Virus record (IMG/VR): IMGVR_UViG_3300017783_004154
Location: 1-26,701 of that record
Strand: one strand, 5' to 3'
DNA length: 26,701 nt
DNA from: a virus
The position numbers and the translations under genes are program-made. The notes beneath the pieces were generated by a model. It was not told the DNA's origin. It did no database searches and saw only the letters and a program-made list of their open reading frames with translations. Shown piece after piece: positions 3,717 to 24,407 of the stretch (the stretch's first letter is position 1; every line of letters starts with the position of its first letter).

Positions 3717-3999
3717 GAGTAGACCAAAACCAAATGTTCTTTTAGAACATATAAACACAAAAACTTATAGAGCAGAACAGGTCTTAGAAGCTGAAGCTAT
3801 CTGGGCAGTGTTCTATAAGAATCAAGCATTTAATCTAAAAAGTTTTAATGCACTTACGAATTATCCGGGTCCAAAATATAAGAAAACAAGTTTTTCAAAT
3901 CCCGGACATGCACATAATCTTGCAAAAAAAATGAACGATGTGTTCAACTCTGAAGACTTTTCTGTCGTAAAACTTACTACAGGAAAGCCAGTAGAGTAA
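3715..3999 (+). CDS. Unknown phage protein, 94 aa
   Basis: I prefer ATG 3715 (MSRPKPNVLLEHI) over the in-frame ATG 3700, because GGAG lies 9 nt before 3715 and 3700 would sit in the hairpin loop without a ribosome binding site. The protein has KTYRAEQVLEAEAIWAVFY, then a basic stretch with YPGPKYKKTSFSNPGHAHNL and a mixed C-terminal end. This pattern is familiar from unnamed proteins of marine T4-like phages, but no function is known to me. No membrane segment. The stop codon shares one base with the next start (TAATG at 3997-4001). Confidence 0.78.
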   Translation: MSRPKPNVLLEHINTKTYRAEQVLEAEAIWAVFYKNQAFNLKSFNALTNYPGPKYKKTSFSNPGHAHNLAKKMNDVFNSEDFSVVKLTTGKPVE

Positions 4000-4628
4000 T
4001 GAAGCCTCACCAAATTGAATGGCGAGATGCAATATTAGGACGTAAGTCAATAAACTTAGATATAAGCAATCTCTGCACACTTGAATGTCCAAGATGTGAT
4101 CGTCAAAAGAAAGGTAGACCTGTGCCTGGTCATAATATGACTGTGGAAGAATTTACTAAAATTGCTGATTACTTTGATAAAATATTATTTTGTGGACAAA
4201 TATCAGATCCGATATTTAATCCTAATCTATTAGACTTTATACAAATTGCTAAAGAAAAGGGCAAGCAACTTAATATTCATACAGCCGCATCACAAAGACC
4301 TACAAATTGGTGGAGTAATGCATTTGATACAATAGATAAAGACAAAAGTAAATGGATATTTGCTTTAGACGGATTACCAAAAGATAGCCACAAGTATAGA
4401 ATAAATCAAGACGGTGAACATGTTTGGGAAATGATGAAACTTGCAGTAAGCAAAGGAGTAAACGTAGGTTGGCAATACATTGTGTTTAAATACAATGAAG
4501 ACGATATTGAGACATGTAAACAAATGGCTATAGACAATGGCATACAATTTAACTTAATGCACAGTTCAAGATGGCGTGGACGAGACGATCCTTACAAGCC
4601 TTCTAAAAATTATAGGATTGATAGATGA
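3999..4628 (+). CDS. Radical SAM enzyme core (SPASM part encoded separately)
   Basis: A 209-residue radical SAM core. The 4Fe-4S/SAM motif is CTLECPRC (C26, C30, C33), preceded by the typical LDISNLC strand. ILFCGQISDPIFNP (about 62-75) takes the place of the usual GGEP strand, with GQ-S-D instead, as in SPASM-type enzymes. The core ends abruptly at YRIDR with no C-terminal auxiliary domain. The next gene starts in the ATGA overlap and supplies a Cys-rich SPASM-like domain, so the two probably act as one enzyme. The family modifies peptides, proteins or small molecules by radical chemistry; the substrate cannot be told from sequence. Confidence 0.88.
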   Translation: MKPHQIEWRDAILGRKSINLDISNLCTLECPRCDRQKKGRPVPGHNMTVEEFTKIADYFDKILFCGQISDPIFNPNLLDFIQIAKEKGKQLNIHTAASQRPTNWWSNAFDTIDKDKSKWIFALDGLPKDSHKYRINQDGEHVWEMMKLAVSKGVNVGWQYIVFKYNEDDIETCKQMAIDNGIQFNLMHSSRWRGRDDPYKPSKNYRIDR

Positions 4629-4933
4629 AGAAAAAATTAAAACCAAAGTGCCATCCTGATTACGAAAACGGACAAAGCCAGTTTGGTTATAGTGCTCAAG
4701 GTTATCTTTTGCCATGCTGTTGGTGTGACCAAGGTGCGCCTGAATTTGAAAAGTTAAAAACTGAAGATTTAGCAGTAGCAAATAACGATAGTATACAAGA
4801 TATAATTACAAGCGATGCATGGGTAGAGTTTGGTAATAGTTTAGTAGCAAGTAATGGTGAAAACGCACCTGCAATGTGTTGGAAATACTGTGCCAGCGAT
4901 AAAGATGTAATAAAAAAAGTTACAATAACATGA
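4625..4933 (+). CDS. SPASM-like auxiliary Fe-S domain protein, partner of the preceding radical SAM core
   Basis: A 102-residue protein with cysteines at 9, 31, 32, 34, 85 and 89. The block GYLLPCCWCDQG (26-37) and the C-terminal MCWKYC (84-89) match the SPASM arrangement, in which a C-terminal domain of a radical SAM enzyme binds auxiliary 4Fe-4S clusters. Here it is a separate gene overlapping the radical SAM core by ATGA (4625-4628), in a different frame. Translational coupling would give equal amounts of the two halves. A sequencing frameshift in a single fused gene is the main alternative, but a well-placed ATG at the overlap favours a natural split. Confidence 0.78.
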   Translation: MKKKLKPKCHPDYENGQSQFGYSAQGYLLPCCWCDQGAPEFEKLKTEDLAVANNDSIQDIITSDAWVEFGNSLVASNGENAPAMCWKYCASDKDVIKKVTIT

Positions 4934-12382: not shown

Positions 12383-13080
12383 ATCTTTCTCCCTTTGTAG
12401 TACATCCTTTTACTCATATCAAGTGCAACAATATCTCCTGTTGCAAACCAGTCATCGTAAATACTTGTTGGTCCTTTAACATGTAATTCATGATTGATAA
12501 TTTTCCAATCGCAATAGTAAGTATCGCCTAATATAGTATACTGTTCAAAGCAACGTTCTTTAACATGCTTTACCTTTTCCATACTATCAAACTCTATGTT
12601 TATAGTAATTGGTCCTATTTCACTCATTCCCCAGTTAGGTTGTACAATAGCACCTTTACTTACAAATGCTTCAATCATTTCCCATGTAACAGGATCACTG
12701 CCACCTAATATACGCTTGCCTGTTAGATCACAATTTAAAAAGCCTTTTGTGTTCATTAATGCAGTCATTTGTGCAGGAGCAAGGAAAGTATGTGTATAGT
12801 CCTTAAAGTCCTTTAGAAATGTAAATGCGTTAAATTGCTGTACTTTGAACTCTGCGCCTAAACTATATGCAGGCAATGTTTGCGTTAATAAGCCGCCTGC
12901 ATGGGTCATACGTGTTACTGTAAGCACCTTAGAACGCTTTGTAAGCTGTTGTGCGTCAATAGCAACATCTATGCAAGCTCTTAAGTTATCTGGTGTTCTA
13001 AGAACCATCTTAGGCTTGCCTGTAGTGCCACTACTACTTATTTCAACACCTTTAGTAAGTATTAGTCTATAATCTATCAT
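12379..13080 (-). CDS. Minimal ANL-superfamily adenylate-forming enzyme
   Basis: A 233-residue protein with the core motifs of acyl-CoA synthetases and NRPS adenylation domains: SSSGTTGKPK (15-24, ATP-binding loop), NWGMSEIGP (149-157), WFATGD (211-216) and a terminal YKGRK (228-232). Full-length relatives have about 350-550 residues. This one lacks most of the N-terminal domain before the P-loop and stops exactly at the hinge, so the C-terminal subdomain with the catalytic Lys is absent. It may still bind ATP and an acid, form an acyl-adenylate with help from another protein, or be inactive. It is closest in style to MenE-like (o-succinylbenzoate) ligases. ATGA overlap with the upstream GMP reductase gene. 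Confidence 0.82.
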   Translation of the reverse strand: MIDYRLILTKGVEISSSGTTGKPKMVLRTPDNLRACIDVAIDAQQLTKRSKVLTVTRMTHAGGLLTQTLPAYSLGAEFKVQQFNAFTFLKDFKDYTHTFLAPAQMTALMNTKGFLNCDLTGKRILGGSDPVTWEMIEAFVSKGAIVQPNWGMSEIGPITINIEFDSMEKVKHVKERCFEQYTILGDTYYCDWKIINHELHVKGPTSIYDDWFATGDIVALDMSKRMYYKGRKI

Positions 13081-14108
13081 TGTTCATACTTTGCTAAACT
13101 ATTGTTAATTTGATTGTTTACTCTAACAAACGTTGTACGCTCGTATAGCATGTTTATATGCTCTGCACCTACATAAGTGCATATACTACGTAAACCGCCT
13201 TGTATTTGCTTTATAACGCTTATTATAGACCCTTTACACGGTACTAATAGATCTCTACCTTCGTTAGGTCTATATTCTTGTTCTGTAGGATTATGGTTAT
13301 TATACATAGTTGTACTACCAAGCCCATAAAAGTTTACATACTTTTTACCGTCTATTTCTACGATATTATCACATTCTTCTGACTTAGATACCATACCTGC
13401 TACCATTACCATTTGTGCGCCTGCACCTATTGCTTTGCATACATCTCCAGCAGTAACACATCCACCGTCTGATATAATCTTTGCACCGTGCTTGTTTGCT
13501 TGCTCATAGCAATCCATGATTGCACTTAACTGTGGTATTCCTGTACCTACTTCTGAACGTGTTCGGCAGGCCGCGCCACTTCCTACTCCTACTTTTATAT
13601 AATCAGCACCAGCATGTACTAATTGTTCTATAAGTTCTGGTGTAGCAACATTTCCTGCACATATGTTTATATGAGGGAATAATTCTCTATAGTATTTTAT
13701 TGTGCTAATCATGCCTTGTTTGTTTGCATATACATTAGCAATGTCAACATTTATAAATCCTATGTCAGGATATTTAGACACTACTACTTTAGTTTTTTCT
13801 ATATCCCAGGGCTGTACGCCGCTTGTAATAGCTATAAACCGCCGATCTTGCATAGTTTCTAACTTAGCAATATGTTGGTCTTTTGTATATTCTTTGTGTA
13901 TAAATGTAAAAACTTTAAGTGGAGTAAGTAGTTTAGCAATACTATAAGTACCAGTACTGAGCATATTTGACACTATAACAGGCGTTGCTGTAGTGTCTAA
14001 CCAATCTATTTCTATATCAACATTCTTGCGTGTTAGAGGTTTATCACTTGCTCGTGGCTCTATTAGTACATCACTGAAGTCTAACTTTAGATCTTGCTTT
14101 ACTTTCAT
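13077..14108 (-). CDS. guaC: GMP reductase (IMPDH/GMPR family)
   Basis: A 343-residue TIM-barrel enzyme. Visible family motifs: DFSDVLIEPR (10-19), FINVDIANVY (118-127), ICAGNVATPE (149-158), VGVGSGAACRTR (173-184) with the catalytic-type C181, and KIISDGGCV further on. There is no CBS insert, and the length matches GMP reductase (about 345 aa) rather than IMP dehydrogenase (about 490 aa). The enzyme reduces GMP to IMP with NADPH. In this phage it could rebalance purines or feed an unusual nucleotide pathway. The ATG directly abuts the stop of the upstream radical SAM gene. IMPDH-like chemistry is the alternative; the symbol is given on length and motif grounds. Confidence 0.85.
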   Translation of the reverse strand: MKVKQDLKLDFSDVLIEPRASDKPLTRKNVDIEIDWLDTTATPVIVSNMLSTGTYSIAKLLTPLKVFTFIHKEYTKDQHIAKLETMQDRRFIAITSGVQPWDIEKTKVVVSKYPDIGFINVDIANVYANKQGMISTIKYYRELFPHINICAGNVATPELIEQLVHAGADYIKVGVGSGAACRTRSEVGTGIPQLSAIMDCYEQANKHGAKIISDGGCVTAGDVCKAIGAGAQMVMVAGMVSKSEECDNIVEIDGKKYVNFYGLGSTTMYNNHNPTEQEYRPNEGRDLLVPCKGSIISVIKQIQGGLRSICTYVGAEHINMLYERTTFVRVNNQINNSLAKYEQ

Positions 14109-15062
14109 TTAGTATCCATTTTCATTTAATTTTACGTGTTCATAAAAAGGAGCAAGTTTCCAGTCTGGTGTAATGCGTCCTCTACGTACACTACCTGGAT
14201 CAGGTATACCTTTTTCGTTTTCTGTATCCCAATCTGTCAACTTAACCCAAATACCTTTATATCTAAACTTAGGATCATGTGTGGTATCAACAGGGTATTC
14301 TATTCCGCAAATTTCTGGAGCACCTGCATATCTATGGTTAATTTTATAAAAGTCCCAAATGTATTTTTCCGGCAAATTAAATTGTTTTGCAGTTATACGT
14401 ACCAAGTCTTCCATCTTCCAGTTTTGGTCTTCACCTTCCATATACCTACCAATTTGTCCTACATTCTTAAAACGCAATGTTACATTTTTTATATCAAGTT
14501 CTTTGATTAAGTTCATCATACGTGTAGGTGCCTCATCGTTTACACCTTTAACTAATATAGTACCTAAATCTAAAGAAAATTTGTTTGCAACATTTTTTAG
14601 TGCTTTTAATTTTTTTGTTGCACACGGCATATCATCAATTGCTGTATACCAATCGTCTCTATCAACTCCATTCATACTCATGTATAAATGCGTTAACCCT
14701 ACATCTACTAATTTTTGTACAAAACTTTCACTGGATAAGCGTAAACCATTTGTAATTAATATACACATGTGACCTGCATCTAAAACTGTTCTAATAAATT
14801 CTATACAGTCTTTGTGGAGTGTAGGCTCTGCACCTATTATACGAAACATACGTTGAGCGTGATTTGGACCAACTGGCACACGTTTAATAAATTCTTTAAA
14901 TTTTTCTAACTGCATGTCAGGTGGTAGTCTATTGGGTAAGTAGCAATTCTTACATTCCATATTACATCTATGTGTTACATCAACAAATATATCTGTAAAA
15001 ATATTATCTTCAGGCTCCAGTTCATAATAGTCTAAATTTTTAAGATCAATTATTTTAGTCAT
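14109..15062 (-). CDS. Radical SAM protein
   Basis: The start at 15062 is chosen because GGAG stands 8 nt before it; the frame stays open 48 nt further upstream inside the neighbour. The protein has 317 residues. The cluster motif is CNMECKNC (C33, C37, C40) in FVDVTHRCNMECKNCYLPN, and the GGEP-like strand reads FRIIGAEPTLH. A C-terminal part after the barrel (about 230-317) has one Cys and many aromatics, without a clear SPASM motif. It overlaps the B12-type radical SAM gene by 8 nt. The two consecutive radical SAM genes may act in succession. Substrate unknown. Confidence 0.88.
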   Translation of the reverse strand: MTKIIDLKNLDYYELEPEDNIFTDIFVDVTHRCNMECKNCYLPNRLPPDMQLEKFKEFIKRVPVGPNHAQRMFRIIGAEPTLHKDCIEFIRTVLDAGHMCILITNGLRLSSESFVQKLVDVGLTHLYMSMNGVDRDDWYTAIDDMPCATKKLKALKNVANKFSLDLGTILVKGVNDEAPTRMMNLIKELDIKNVTLRFKNVGQIGRYMEGEDQNWKMEDLVRITAKQFNLPEKYIWDFYKINHRYAGAPEICGIEYPVDTTHDPKFRYKGIWVKLTDWDTENEKGIPDPGSVRRGRITPDWKLAPFYEHVKLNENGY

Positions 15063-19916: not shown

Positions 19917-20528
19917 TTACTTAACTCTGAACTGCTCGAACAAAACGTCAAAGCTCTCTTGGTTAAGTTCGTAATTTACAACTAACCAATAGCTCGGTTT
20001 AGATGTACTGTTAAAAAGTTCATGCTCTTTTGCTGTATCAAGAAAGTACAAAACATTAGGTTCAAAATTAAGTGCTTTGCCTTCCATAACAAATGTACAA
20101 GGGTTTTTCAATGCCGCTATTAAGCGTACATGATGAAAATTATTTTTATAGTAATCTCTATGTTTAGGAAAGTATCCACCTGGATTTAATTTTAGTACAT
20201 GTGTTCTAAACATCCAAGGTTGATATGGTAGCAAAAATTTACGTAAATCAGGACTGTCATAATATACAGGTGTAGGAATAGTAAAGTCCCGTTCTTCTAT
20301 TTCCATATCATGTTCTTTGTTATATTCCGTTAAACTGTCAAGATCGGGTACTCCGCTTACACCGCCATCTAAACTTGTAATGCTTAGGCCTTGCCTATCG
20401 ATTTTCTTGCGTGGATTATATTGTACATATTCAAAGTTTTCTTCAGTCCAGTCAATAAACTTAGTGCCGTTTATTCTGCTATTGAGAGGTATAAAAGATC
20501 CGTAATTTAATAATTGTGAATATAACAT
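19917..20528 (-). CDS. AspH/2OG-type oxygenase-like protein
   Basis: ATG 20528 is chosen: it shares one base with the upstream stop (TAATG). The 203-residue protein has KLNPGGYFPKHRDYY (113-127) with H123-R-D125, then VRLIAALKNP, LNFEPNVLYFLDT and AKEHELFNSTS with H169. This is the pattern of the aspartyl/asparaginyl beta-hydroxylase branch of 2OG oxygenases, in which the acidic ligand can be variable; here all three metal ligands are visible. The N-terminal 90 residues are unlike known domains. Protein hydroxylation is a reasonable guess; the target is unknown. Confidence 0.75.
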   Translation of the reverse strand: MLYSQLLNYGSFIPLNSRINGTKFIDWTEENFEYVQYNPRKKIDRQGLSITSLDGGVSGVPDLDSLTEYNKEHDMEIEERDFTIPTPVYYDSPDLRKFLLPYQPWMFRTHVLKLNPGGYFPKHRDYYKNNFHHVRLIAALKNPCTFVMEGKALNFEPNVLYFLDTAKEHELFNSTSKPSYWLVVNYELNQESFDVLFEQFRVK

Positions 20529-21373
20529 TAGTTGCACCAAACCTTTTTCAATGTTGCTGTATTAAGTATTTTAAAATATTCAGTTTCGTCTTTATCTTTA
20601 AAAAGGCGACCTAAGGGTATTTGTCCAAAACTATTTTTAGGTTCATCAGGATCGTAACCGCCAGTCTCCATCCATTGCCGCATTTTAATAATACGCTGTT
20701 GTTGAGTTCCATATGCTGTTGTTTTAAAGGTCATATTAAAACTGGGGCTCCACTGTGTGAGTGGTACTGCTGACGATGGCTGTTTATATGCCTTCCATTG
20801 TTTTTCCCATTCTTGTCCCACTGCATTATAATTTAAGTATAACACATAAGGTTCTTTCCAGGGTGTAAACAATTTATAATCACTCTCTTCAAAATCGTAC
20901 TTAGGTACGTTAGGTTGGCCTGTTTTGGGATCAACAAACCTAAATCGTATACGAGGAAAGTTTTTTACTTTTTTTGATTTTGCTTCTAACAAATGTATTA
21001 TATCATTAAGTAAACCCCTATCTTGCCTTGCAATATCTTGATCGTGTGCTTGTTCTACCCACGTATCATCTTTTGCAATATTTTCATATATTAAATGTAC
21101 ATTATATAAATCATCAAGGGTATATTCATCTAATATCATAGTAATAGGAATTGTATTAGGCACATGGCTGTTTATTTTTTCAATAATATTTTGTAAAGGT
21201 CTCCATGTTTCATCTTCAATATCTGTACCCTGACTTTGTAGTTCCCAATCTGTGCTTTTAGGCACAAGATTGTTTACTTGCTCAAAGTTAGCATACCAAC
21301 GTCGAGTAAAGTCATTATCATACAAATGAAATTCGAATTTTTTTAAGTTTGTAAATTGAAAATGTATTCTCAA
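20528..21373 (-). CDS. Unknown protein with TTG start, 281 aa
   Basis: I choose TTG 21373 as start: it overlaps the upstream stop as TTGA and has AAAAAGG with 8-nt spacing. An ATG at 21415 lies 46 nt inside the neighbour with no such support. The protein begins (M)RIHFQFTNLKKFEFHLYDN. It has a charged helical middle (DQDIARQDRGLLNDIIHLLE) and an aromatic, basic C-terminal half with several Trp. No catalytic motif, Cys cluster or membrane segment is seen. It sits between the radical SAM paralogues and an AspH-like oxygenase, so it may be a substrate-recognition or partner protein; I cannot name a family. Confidence 0.72.
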   Translation of the reverse strand: MRIHFQFTNLKKFEFHLYDNDFTRRWYANFEQVNNLVPKSTDWELQSQGTDIEDETWRPLQNIIEKINSHVPNTIPITMILDEYTLDDLYNVHLIYENIAKDDTWVEQAHDQDIARQDRGLLNDIIHLLEAKSKKVKNFPRIRFRFVDPKTGQPNVPKYDFEESDYKLFTPWKEPYVLYLNYNAVGQEWEKQWKAYKQPSSAVPLTQWSPSFNMTFKTTAYGTQQQRIIKMRQWMETGGYDPDEPKNSFGQIPLGRLFKDKDETEYFKILNTATLKKVWCN

Positions 21374-21657
21374 ATTTTGTGCCTTTTTGTTTTCAAATCT
21401 GCTACACACGTACAACTACGTTTTGTACAAATTATATTATCTTTAGGCAAGTTCCATACTTCGTCATCAACGTGGCCAATAGGGCCGCCCATTTTACATG
21501 TACCTCTAAACAATGAACCATCTGAATAAATGTCTATACTTTCTGTACCTATACCACAACTCCAACCTTCAAAATTTACTGCTTCAGCTTTTACTAAGTC
21601 GTTTGCCCAAACTTCTTCTGACTCAGTTAGTGTGTATACTTTTAAATCAGGCTTCAT
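21370..21657 (-). CDS. Free auxiliary Cys-rich domain, related to the N-terminus of a nearby radical SAM enzyme
   Basis: A 95-residue protein with cysteines C34, C54, C77, C82 and C84 (CX19C, then CX4CXC). The same spacing and the flanking GW.C, dG.l/vyG..C and IICxxxxCxC patterns occur in residues 30-79 of the radical SAM protein two genes upstream, so the two are homologous. There the domain is fused ahead of the radical SAM core; here it stands alone, just downstream of a core that lacks it. It likely binds an auxiliary Fe-S cluster in trans. It overlaps the upstream radical SAM gene by 11 nt. Confidence 0.8.
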   Translation of the reverse strand: MKPDLKVYTLTESEEVWANDLVKAEAVNFEGWSCGIGTESIDIYSDGSLFRGTCKMGGPIGHVDDEVWNLPKDNIICTKRSCTCVADLKTKRHKI

Positions 21658-22327
21658 CTATTTGCTCCAACATCTTAAATCTAAACTCAGTGTTATTTAA
21701 AAATTCTAATTGATCGGGATTATAAACTGGTTCATAACCATTAGGTCCCCATTTTTTTCTAATACGTTTCATGCTATATCTTATTTCATTGTTCTCACAA
21801 AATTTAACAAGCCTTACTGCTTTGTCCCAAAACTCTGGCTCCATCATAAGATTCAAACTTATATGTTTGTGCTGTTGCTTTTGTGCTTCTGCATGAGCTG
21901 TAACTAATTTATTTTCAAATTCATCTGTAGTCTCTAAATATTCGAAATGACTACTAAACTGTATAACATCAATTTGTTGTATTAATTGTTTGTAGTAATT
22001 TGCTGTTCTTGATCCATTAGTATTTAATCCTACGATCCAACCGTTTTTAGATTTTAAATGTTTGCATAATTTACTAAAGGCAGGGTTTACTGTAGGTTCT
22101 CCGCCTGTAAACCATATACGTACTTTAGGCTTAGGACTATTCAATTCAATCTTGTCTGCAATAGTTTTTAAGTTTTCAAAATCTCTGTGAGGACTGTGCA
22201 TGTCATGCAAGTTATCAGGACAATACACACAATTATAATTGCAACGTTTGCCTATATTCCAATGCACGTAAAAATAGTTTTCATCACGTGTAGCTTCCAT
22301 TGCTATTATGTCTTTATAGTCTACCAT
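21647..22327 (-). CDS. Radical SAM core protein, paralogue of the upstream gene
   Basis: A 226-residue radical SAM core: WNIGKRCNYNCVYCPDN with C29, C33 and C36, and FTGGEPTVNP with GGEP at 75-78. Strong similarity to residues 128-313 of the protein encoded immediately upstream (WNLGRRCNYDCSYCPS, FTGGEPTINP, FTNTNGTAS/GLNTNGSRT) shows a tandem duplication. It lacks the N-terminal Cys domain of its paralogue, which is supplied by the next gene. The start overlaps the paralogue's end by 7 nt. Radical SAM enzymes of this layout often modify peptides or small molecules; substrate unknown. Confidence 0.87.
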   Translation of the reverse strand: MVDYKDIIAMEATRDENYFYVHWNIGKRCNYNCVYCPDNLHDMHSPHRDFENLKTIADKIELNSPKPKVRIWFTGGEPTVNPAFSKLCKHLKSKNGWIVGLNTNGSRTANYYKQLIQQIDVIQFSSHFEYLETTDEFENKLVTAHAEAQKQQHKHISLNLMMEPEFWDKAVRLVKFCENNEIRYSMKRIRKKWGPNGYEPVYNPDQLEFLNNTEFRFKMLEQIDEA

Positions 22328-23262
22328 TGTCCGTTCCTAATATAGTGTAGTTGTTGTTCATTGTATGGATATAATTTATTGTCATCTGCTTTGTCTACTA
22401 ACGGCTCTGCATTTACTTTAAGTCCGTAACTTAGTAGTGTATCAATTATATCTGTATATTCTTTATCAAATGTCAACGGCATCATCATTTTTACGTATAT
22501 ATTTAAACCTTTTAACTTTTCAAGTTTTTTAACTAATTTAGGTAACACTGTAAATTCTTCGTGTACACTTAGATATAAGCCGCCAACTTCGGCTAATCTT
22601 TTAAGTTTCTTTACACTCGCTGTCCCGTTAGTGTTAGTAAAGACACTTACTCCTTGGTGACTTACTGCATACTCTACCATTTCTATATAGTCTGGATTTA
22701 TTGTAGGTTCTCCGCCTGTAAATGTAAATTTAATTTTTGGTTGTTGTATTTGTTTATATAGATTATCAAATGCAATCTTAAATCTTTCTAAACTTAGGTG
22801 TGGACTGAAGTTATCGTGTACTGTAGACGGGCAGTAACTACAATCATAATTACATCTACGTCCAAGATTCCAATTAATTTGGAATGTTGCATCTGGACCA
22901 AACTTTTTGTCGTCTATTATTGCTTCTACATCTTGTAAATCTTTTACTACTGGATAGTTGTAACTGTGGTCTATAGTTGGTATAATGCCTTTTGTTTTTT
23001 CTTTAGGTATGCCGATGTCACTCGAACAATAACAACTTGCCGCTGGACAAATTATAGGCTCAGTGGGCAACTCAAATCCTTTATACACATTCCCGTATTG
23101 TCCGCTATGCTTACATACATTACCATACACGTATCCATTCATATTAATCCATAAGAAATCATGACCGCTGTAACAATGCCAACCCTTAAACTTATTGTTG
23201 TTTGCTTTGTATACTCCGTAATCTGCTTGTACTATTTTGTCTTTTGTTTTTGCGATTATCAT
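22321..23262 (-). CDS. Radical SAM protein with N-terminal auxiliary Cys domain
   Basis: ATG 23262 is chosen for its ATGA overlap with the upstream gene; a GTG at 23274 is also open. The 313-residue protein has an auxiliary domain with C30, C50, C72, C77 and C79, then the radical SAM core with CNYDCSYC (C137, C141, C144) and TGGEP near 182-186. Having the auxiliary domain ahead of the core is unusual; SPASM and twitch domains normally lie C-terminal. A paralogous core and a separate copy of the auxiliary domain follow directly. The three genes look like products of a duplication and shuffle, perhaps forming a heteromer. Confidence 0.87.
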   Translation of the reverse strand: MIIAKTKDKIVQADYGVYKANNNKFKGWHCYSGHDFLWINMNGYVYGNVCKHSGQYGNVYKGFELPTEPIICPAASCYCSSDIGIPKEKTKGIIPTIDHSYNYPVVKDLQDVEAIIDDKKFGPDATFQINWNLGRRCNYDCSYCPSTVHDNFSPHLSLERFKIAFDNLYKQIQQPKIKFTFTGGEPTINPDYIEMVEYAVSHQGVSVFTNTNGTASVKKLKRLAEVGGLYLSVHEEFTVLPKLVKKLEKLKGLNIYVKMMMPLTFDKEYTDIIDTLLSYGLKVNAEPLVDKADDNKLYPYNEQQLHYIRNGQW

Positions 23263-24407
23263 AATTCTAACCACTTTCTGGTTAATGGACCTAATACATC
23301 TTGTGCTTGCATTTTCCTTTGTTGCAAAAACAGAATTACTTGCTCTCTTACCTTTGCCATAGGCACTTGAGGATTGTGTACTAATCTTTTTTGTAGACGC
23401 TCGCTAACTTGCTCTTTTGTGTGTTCAATAATACTTGCAGGAGCGTTTGAATAATTTAACGGATGATGCACAGGTTTAATTTCACAACTCCACCAAACTT
23501 GATCAATGTAACCATTGTCTGTAAACCATTTTTCCATTTCTGAAATATACTCTAAATTAAGTATGTTTACTAACGGATTTATTTTAAACTGTATATTATC
23601 AGCTTTATTTTCTTGTAGAAATTTTAAATTGGCTGCCATTTTCTCAAATTTATGCGGCCATCTAATAAAATCATAGTTGCTGTGTATTCCGTCTATACTG
23701 ATACGCATTAAAGATGTTTTGAACTGTGCAAGTTGATCTAACACTTTTTGGTTTATGATTGTTCCATTAGTTGTTACTTCAAAATTGCAATCGTTTGCAT
23801 ACCCTTGTTCTAATGCTTCGCCAATTTGGTCCCAGTTATTTTTTAAAAAAGGCTCACCGCCTATAACTTTGAATGTATGAACTTTATAAGTTTTTAGTAT
23901 GTCAGCAATAAACGTACCTAATTTAGGCTGTTGTGCATCAACCTCTATGTCCCAATTAAAAGGAATAGTATCCATTTTAGATGCAGTTTTTGCTATTAAA
24001 CTGCTGGCTGAAGGACCGCAGAAAGGACATGCTAAATTACATTCGTTACCTAAAACAATATCTAATCTGTTTATATCATATCCTCTATGCTCATTGTTTA
24101 ATTGCTTTTGGTTAATGCCCAAACGGGGACTTTCTATGCCTGCTTTTTCTTGCAAAATACAACGATTACAATCTGGAGGTAGATAAGAATTTTTCTTAAA
24201 ATATTGTTTATACCAACTATTAGAGGGGTGTTCAAATATATCTTTTGCATCTGATACAGGAACAAATTTCTTTATACTTGATTCGGTAAATTCGTTTGCT
24301 ATATTACAACAGGGTTTGCGTCTAAGGTATAACTGTCCATTTTGTTCCATGAAGTGTAACCTCATACCCTTGTCTACGTATGCACAATAGTTCTTTTTCT
24401 TGGCCAT
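23259..24407 (-). CDS. Twitch-type radical SAM protein
   Basis: A 382-residue protein. The radical SAM motif is CNLACPFC (C123, C127, C130) in DIVLGNECNLACPFCGPS, and GGEP lies at 183-186, followed by VTTNGT and RISIDGIHSNYDFIRWP, typical of the twitch/SPASM group. An N-terminal region holds CC at 33-34 and CNRC (80-83), which could bind an additional cluster. The C-terminal 60 residues are helical. Its start shares one base with the methyltransferase-like gene upstream, a pairing I recall for this family in marine phages, which is not checked here. Substrate unknown. Confidence 0.87.
   Translation of the reverse strand: MAKKKNYCAYVDKGMRLHFMEQNGQLYLRRKPCCNIANEFTESSIKKFVPVSDAKDIFEHPSNSWYKQYFKKNSYLPPDCNRCILQEKAGIESPRLGINQKQLNNEHRGYDINRLDIVLGNECNLACPFCGPSASSLIAKTASKMDTIPFNWDIEVDAQQPKLGTFIADILKTYKVHTFKVIGGEPFLKNNWDQIGEALEQGYANDCNFEVTTNGTIINQKVLDQLAQFKTSLMRISIDGIHSNYDFIRWPHKFEKMAANLKFLQENKADNIQFKINPLVNILNLEYISEMEKWFTDNGYIDQVWWSCEIKPVHHPLNYSNAPASIIEHTKEQVSERLQKRLVHNPQVPMAKVREQVILFLQQRKMQAQDVLGPLTRKWLEL

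Follow-up and report, generated by a model that had tools for sequence, protein, structure and literature searches.

Genes B and C of a metagenomic phage contig encode, with a probability of about three in four, a single core-Twitch radical SAM enzyme made as two polypeptides, and the adjacent gene A encodes its sister, in which a Twitch-like domain is placed before the core. In radical SAM enzymes the core makes the 5'-deoxyadenosyl radical, whereas a Twitch domain holds one auxiliary cluster. The window, i.e. the whole stretch of phage DNA that was analysed, is an IMG/VR virus record of 26,701 bases.

Organization of the locus

Five genes are transcribed from the minus strand in the order D, A, B, C, N1, with overlapping ends.

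Gene D: 23259..24407, minus strand, radical SAM protein of the NF033640 (N_Twi_rSAM) family, 174.7 bits with a cut-off of 170
Gene A: 22321..23262, minus strand, auxiliary (Twitch-like) domain followed by a radical SAM core in one chain, i.e. in the domain-first (permuted) order
Auxiliary domain of gene A: 22984..23274, minus strand, delimited by alignments, with the five cysteines C34, C54, C76, C81 and C83
Gene B: 21647..22327, minus strand, radical SAM core only, 226 residues, overlapping the end of A
Gene C: 21370..21657, minus strand, free-standing auxiliary domain of 95 residues with the five cysteines C34, C54, C77, C82 and C84
Gene N1: 20528..21415, minus strand, directly after C, no family match in profile searches

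The likely start of gene A is the ATG at 23262, which gives 313 residues and overlaps the stop codon of D. Residue numbers of A refer to the 317-residue form that starts at the GTG at 23274 (22321..23274), in which the auxiliary domain occupies residues 22-93 and the core residues 129-313.

The Pfam model PF04055 matches A with an E-value of 8e-16 (residues 136-237) and B with 7e-14. At 59.1, 52.7 and 47.6 bits, A, B and D all lie above its gathering score of 29.5 and belong to the radical SAM superfamily, and the CX3CX2C cluster motif is invariant in the alignments of the radical SAM cores. The initial annotation had described the two neighbouring cores as paralogues, which was borne out: the motifs CNYDCSYC and FTGGEPTINP recur in B as CNYNCVYC and FTGGEPTVNP, and a search within the window with A matched B at 4e-28. 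The same search matched C at 8e-10 and, together with the alignments, establishes that the auxiliary domains of A and C are homologous, so that unrelated domains, named beforehand as an outcome that would count against the idea, are excluded at the level of sequence. The five-cysteine domain was also found where it had been described, in front of the core in A and alone in C, with the Twitch-type spacings CX19CX21CX4CXC in A and CX19CX22CX4CXC in C.

Fused, split and permuted relatives

Core and domain HMMs were run over 165 loci, referred to below by L numbers, and the architectures of the open reading frames were counted. These comprise 142 of the core-domain type, 39 of the domain-core type and 17 with the domain alone, some of them cut by contig ends. 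With 142 against 39 domain-first frames, core and domain in one chain, in this order, is the common form, suggesting that B and C are the usual enzyme split in two and A is an order-permuted sister. B and C align end to end with fused core-auxiliary proteins and the cut falls in the linker. C retains the linker motif AND and aligns with the C-terminal domain of the fused proteins.

The core tree places the split cores of the window, L001, L010 and L012 in one clade (support 99) among the core-domain proteins, and the domain-first proteins cluster together (22 rows, 2 changes). In the domain trees, built on approximately 76-84 columns, the free domains of the same four loci again form one clade (99/100), and the domain of A groups with those of the domain-first proteins from L001, L010 and L012. 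Constraining the window's A and C domains to group with each other was rejected by an AU test (p-AU 1e-6), so that a recent exchange between A and C, by domain swap or gene conversion, is ruled out; judged from these trees, each auxiliary domain goes with the core of its own enzyme. A common origin of all domain-first forms was neither supported nor rejected by the AU test (p 0.39). L001 (838-1824) and L002 (1935-2921) have, upstream of D, one more domain-first paralogue of A, which is very divergent; it has the longest branch in both large trees and is absent from that place in the window.

The split has arisen more than once. The split genes of L075 are nested among fused genes of the L034/L037 type in both the core and the domain tree, indicating recent splitting there. 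A third independent split, with adjacent core and free-domain genes, is found in L093 (6004-7106) and L094 (5917-7019), which are Bdellovibrionia MAG contigs of 917 kb and 56 kb, outside recognised viral contigs.

Conservation of the split and selection on gene C

Independent IMG/VR contigs from other samples also have the D-A-B-C-N1 block, and in them protein identity is approximately 44% for D, 50% for A, 73% for B, 77% for C and 35% for N1; these contigs are fragments and partly redundant, with L001/L003 and L002/L004 being near copies. A scan with C retrieved ten loci, nine of which have a free domain. The order A-B-C is kept in all nine, and the genes are contiguous apart from an insertion in L010/L011, where the homologues of B and C are separated by a gene for a PP-loop (QueC-like) ATPase (L010 7624-8256). 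Gene D lies directly upstream of A and overlaps its start, an adjacency kept in L001-L004, L010 and L012.

C is under purifying selection, with a dN of 0.17 and a dS of 1.26 between the window and L001, and 0.24 and 1.13 between L010 and L012, figures that are rough because dS is near saturation. The gene overlaps the end of B by 11 bases and has a ribosome-binding site of its own, GGAG 7 nt before the ATG, which is kept in L001/L002; similar purine-rich sites precede C in other lineages.

The conserved gene order, the selection on C and the gene inserted between B and C in L010/L011 all argue against an assembly artefact. The initial annotation had foreseen that relatives might carry the domain fused at the C terminus and that the arrangement might then be such an artefact; the former is true of most relatives, the latter is not the case. 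In isolated phages, tblastn searches matched A and B only weakly, in the core, and C not at all. A single-sequence scan of IMG/VR with A gave no matches, and the alignment scan gave the relatives.

Cysteine residues and family matches of the auxiliary domain

All five cysteine residues are invariant in an alignment of 27 divergent copies of the auxiliary domain. They lie on either side of a predicted hairpin and continue into CX4CXC, paralleling the five C-terminal cysteines of SkfB (PMC6231123). The ligand pattern of SPASM/Twitch enzymes, with cysteines flanking a hairpin and a CXC/CX4CXC-type group, is thus present, with GX6C replacing the GX4C of the motif. In its combination of a core with a small cysteine domain that would hold one auxiliary cluster, the system resembles Twitch enzymes of the SkfB, BtrN and MoaA type, but their domain is C-terminal in the same chain, whereas here it is N-terminal in A and a separate gene in C. 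The SPASM model PF13186 matched 4 of 35 members, with a best E-value of 0.012, and neither A nor C. Profile searches of the Protein Data Bank gave chance matches only, none of them credible, for the auxiliary domain alone and nothing useful for the C-terminal part of the fused proteins. The Twitch fold proposed for the auxiliary domain is a prediction from sequence.

NF038073 is the sole NCBIfam model matched by both core and auxiliary domain (33 of 35 members). The N-terminal 97 residues of A match model positions 192-253 and its core positions 11-135, i.e. the two halves of A stand in reversed order. With 43.3 bits for A and 14.2 for C, the cut-off of 200 bits is far from reached, and A is not a member of this family (STM4011), on which a literature search found no paper. 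NF033640, with its cut-off of 170, scored 38.6 bits with A and 28.6 with B. The short name of that family, N_Twi_rSAM, suggests an N-terminal Twitch domain, and its member D adjoins A. The N-terminal stretch of D matches model positions 16-87, the N-terminal end of the model, whereas the auxiliary domain of A has no match to this part. Name and match together suggest that curators have already noticed an N-terminal Twitch domain. Free-standing or N-terminal SPASM/Twitch domains and circularly permuted radical SAM enzymes were not found described in open-licence papers. The earlier statement that the arrangement had not been seen described therefore applies to the free and permuted forms in that literature, but less well to an N-terminal Twitch domain as such.

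Pairing of domain-first and core-first enzymes

Domain-first and core-domain genes often adjoin, for example in L020, L028, L029, L031, L035 and L091. At 40 of the 75 loci of partner-type core-domain genes, a domain-first gene lies within 10 kb, and in 23 of these within 200 bp; 21 of the 23 close pairs have the core-domain gene followed by the domain-first gene on one strand. The remaining contigs, lacking a close domain-first gene, have one elsewhere in 16 of 30 cases. Conversely, of 14 contigs that carry a domain-first gene, 9 also have a full-length core-domain partner. Some contigs, most of which are fragments, carry one partner gene without the other. For other core-domain lineages, a domain-first gene was found in none of 30 contigs, a control that is biased because these contigs were retrieved for having a best match that was not domain-first. 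Their co-occurrence on most contigs makes it likely that the domain-first and core-first enzymes are a functional pair, and A with B and C looks like a split version of such a pair. The L020-type partner has closer relatives than B in the core tree.

A parallel case in a second radical SAM family

The window also contains a split pair of a second radical SAM family.

Second-family core-only gene: 3999..4628, plus strand, PF04055 E-value 5e-6, just below the gathering score
Second-family SPASM-like auxiliary gene: 4625..4933, plus strand, overlapping the end of the core gene, PF13186 E-value 0.0025, below the gathering score

Fused core-domain frames of this family number 59, near copies counted. 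Core and domain are split in the window, L033, L037 and L088, split in the reversed order of domain and core in L010/L011 (3870-4842), and fused in the order domain-core in three frames, from L011, L012 and L013. One clade of five (support 98, in a quick tree with long branches) unites the split core/domain genes of the window and L033, the domain/core genes of L010 and the fused domain-core proteins of L011 and L012. These states are the pattern expected if permutation proceeds via gene fission, reordering and re-fusion, and they suggest such a route.

Proposed mechanism and alternative explanations

In the two-polypeptide enzyme, B would bind the SAM [4Fe-4S] cluster and generate the 5'-deoxyadenosyl radical. 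C would bind one auxiliary Fe-S cluster and, as far as sequence can tell, dock non-covalently on B at the usual C-terminal Twitch site. Its cluster may ligate the substrate or take the electron back after hydrogen-atom abstraction, and its five cysteines would allow either a fully ligated cluster or an open site for the substrate. In SkfB, the Twitch domain wraps back to the N terminus of the core and extends the barrel sheet beside beta-1 (PMC6231123). A domain in a SkfB-like place could be tied to the core N terminus, as in A, to the C terminus, as in the fused relatives, or to neither, as in B and C, and its position by the core N terminus would explain attachment at either end or none. Given the fused, split, reordered and permuted states in two families, the auxiliary domain appears to be a detachable module that acts in trans. 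A and the B-C enzyme probably act in the same pathway, and perhaps as a complex.

The constant gene order also leads to the question whether the domain of A, or C, could serve the active site of the other enzyme within an obligate A-B-C complex in which clusters are shared or exchanged. The three genes are always contiguous in the split clade, bar the gene before C in L010/L011, and domain-first enzymes occur together with core-first ones. Two radical SAM enzymes can depend on forming a complex, as TrnC and TrnD do (PMC12093266), and intermolecular electron transfer via auxiliary clusters has been reported for PapB (PMC10470005). Yet recent exchange is rejected by the domain trees, where each domain has remained with the core of its own enzyme, and since each enzyme has its own fused domain in most relatives, sharing would be unnecessary; the shared complex is considered improbable. 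Of the initial annotation's proposal of a two-component radical SAM enzyme with a shared or swapped auxiliary cluster, the two components are thus retained, as a split form of an enzyme fused in most relatives, but the swapping is contradicted by the grouping of each domain with its own lineage, and sharing, although compatible with the sequences inside a protein complex, is not supported.

A regulatory or vestigial split, in which B would work by itself with a single cluster and C would be an electron carrier, chaperone or substrate carrier, is held to be no more probable than the shared complex. C aligns with the domain of the fused relatives with the linker included, the same core and domain pairing recurs in independent splits, and purifying selection acts on both B and C, even though many radical SAM enzymes lack an auxiliary cluster and C, with its own ribosome-binding site, has moved away from B in L010/L011. 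Least probable by far is ribosomal frameshifting within the 11-base overlap, by which B and C would normally be made as a single chain. The window and L001/L002 share the conserved overlap GATGARGCCTGATTTAAAAGT, but C has a start codon and a ribosome-binding site of its own, an obvious slippery heptamer is absent, another gene separates B and C in L010/L011, and the junctions in L012, L248 and L249 are different.

The reading of B and C as one enzyme in two polypeptides can be extended to an A-B-C complex that has two radical sites and two auxiliary clusters, between which electrons or substrate would pass, and to module fission, reordering and re-fusion as a general permutation route in radical SAM enzymes, seen here in two families. 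This extension is speculative and regarded as unlikely, though somewhat less so than the shared-cluster complex.

Neighbouring genes and possible role

N1 also directly follows the free domain in split relatives, and it directly precedes the core-auxiliary gene in the fused loci L045, L047, L049, L063, L067 and L073. Its presence beside both forms makes it a likely partner or substrate of the B-C enzyme and further ties B and C to the fused enzyme. L001 and L002 have two copies of N1, each followed by a PP-loop ATPase gene.

Genes resembling UDP-glucose dehydrogenase and aspartyl hydroxylase, a class IV aminotransferase gene and a methyltransferase gene lie nearby. Seven radical SAM genes are spread over the 26.7 kb (166-24407), namely a QueE-like gene at 166, those at 3999 and 14109, a B12-binding type at 15055, and B, A and D. 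A homologue of IMP dehydrogenase/GMP reductase at 13077-14108 (PF00478, E-value 1e-59) adjoins radical SAM genes in the phage. In pelagimyophages, sugar genes occur in the host-recognition region, where radical SAM cassettes are variable, and these sugar genes are thought to change the host surface (PMC7029224). It is tentatively proposed that the cassette tailors a sugar, a surface glycan or a peptide building block during infection.

Relation to known systems and significance

The thuricin CD maturases TrnC and TrnD are likewise two radical SAM enzymes from one gene cluster that act as a complex, but each is a complete chain that includes its own auxiliary and peptide-recognition domains, none of them detached (PMC12093266). 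Some T4-like phages are also rich in radical SAM genes, with about a dozen of unknown role in the Campylobacter phages CP220 and CPt10 (PMC2853527) and the marine TARA_ERS488813_N000010 (PMC5332604); a detached or permuted auxiliary domain is not mentioned in the accessible portions of those papers.

What auxiliary clusters do in radical SAM enzymes has been called largely enigmatic (PMC10470005). With the auxiliary domain as a separate protein, the two clusters could be loaded, titrated, mutated and observed singly, which makes the system a natural test of the domain's role, and comparison of the fused, split and permuted enzymes found in nature shows which covalent links can be done without. 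That the link has been lost repeatedly in two families suggests an interface between domain and core that is strong and tolerant of geometry, which may be useful for chimeric radical enzymes. For annotation, the locus is a warning that small five-cysteine genes beside core-only radical SAM genes may be the missing halves of enzymes.
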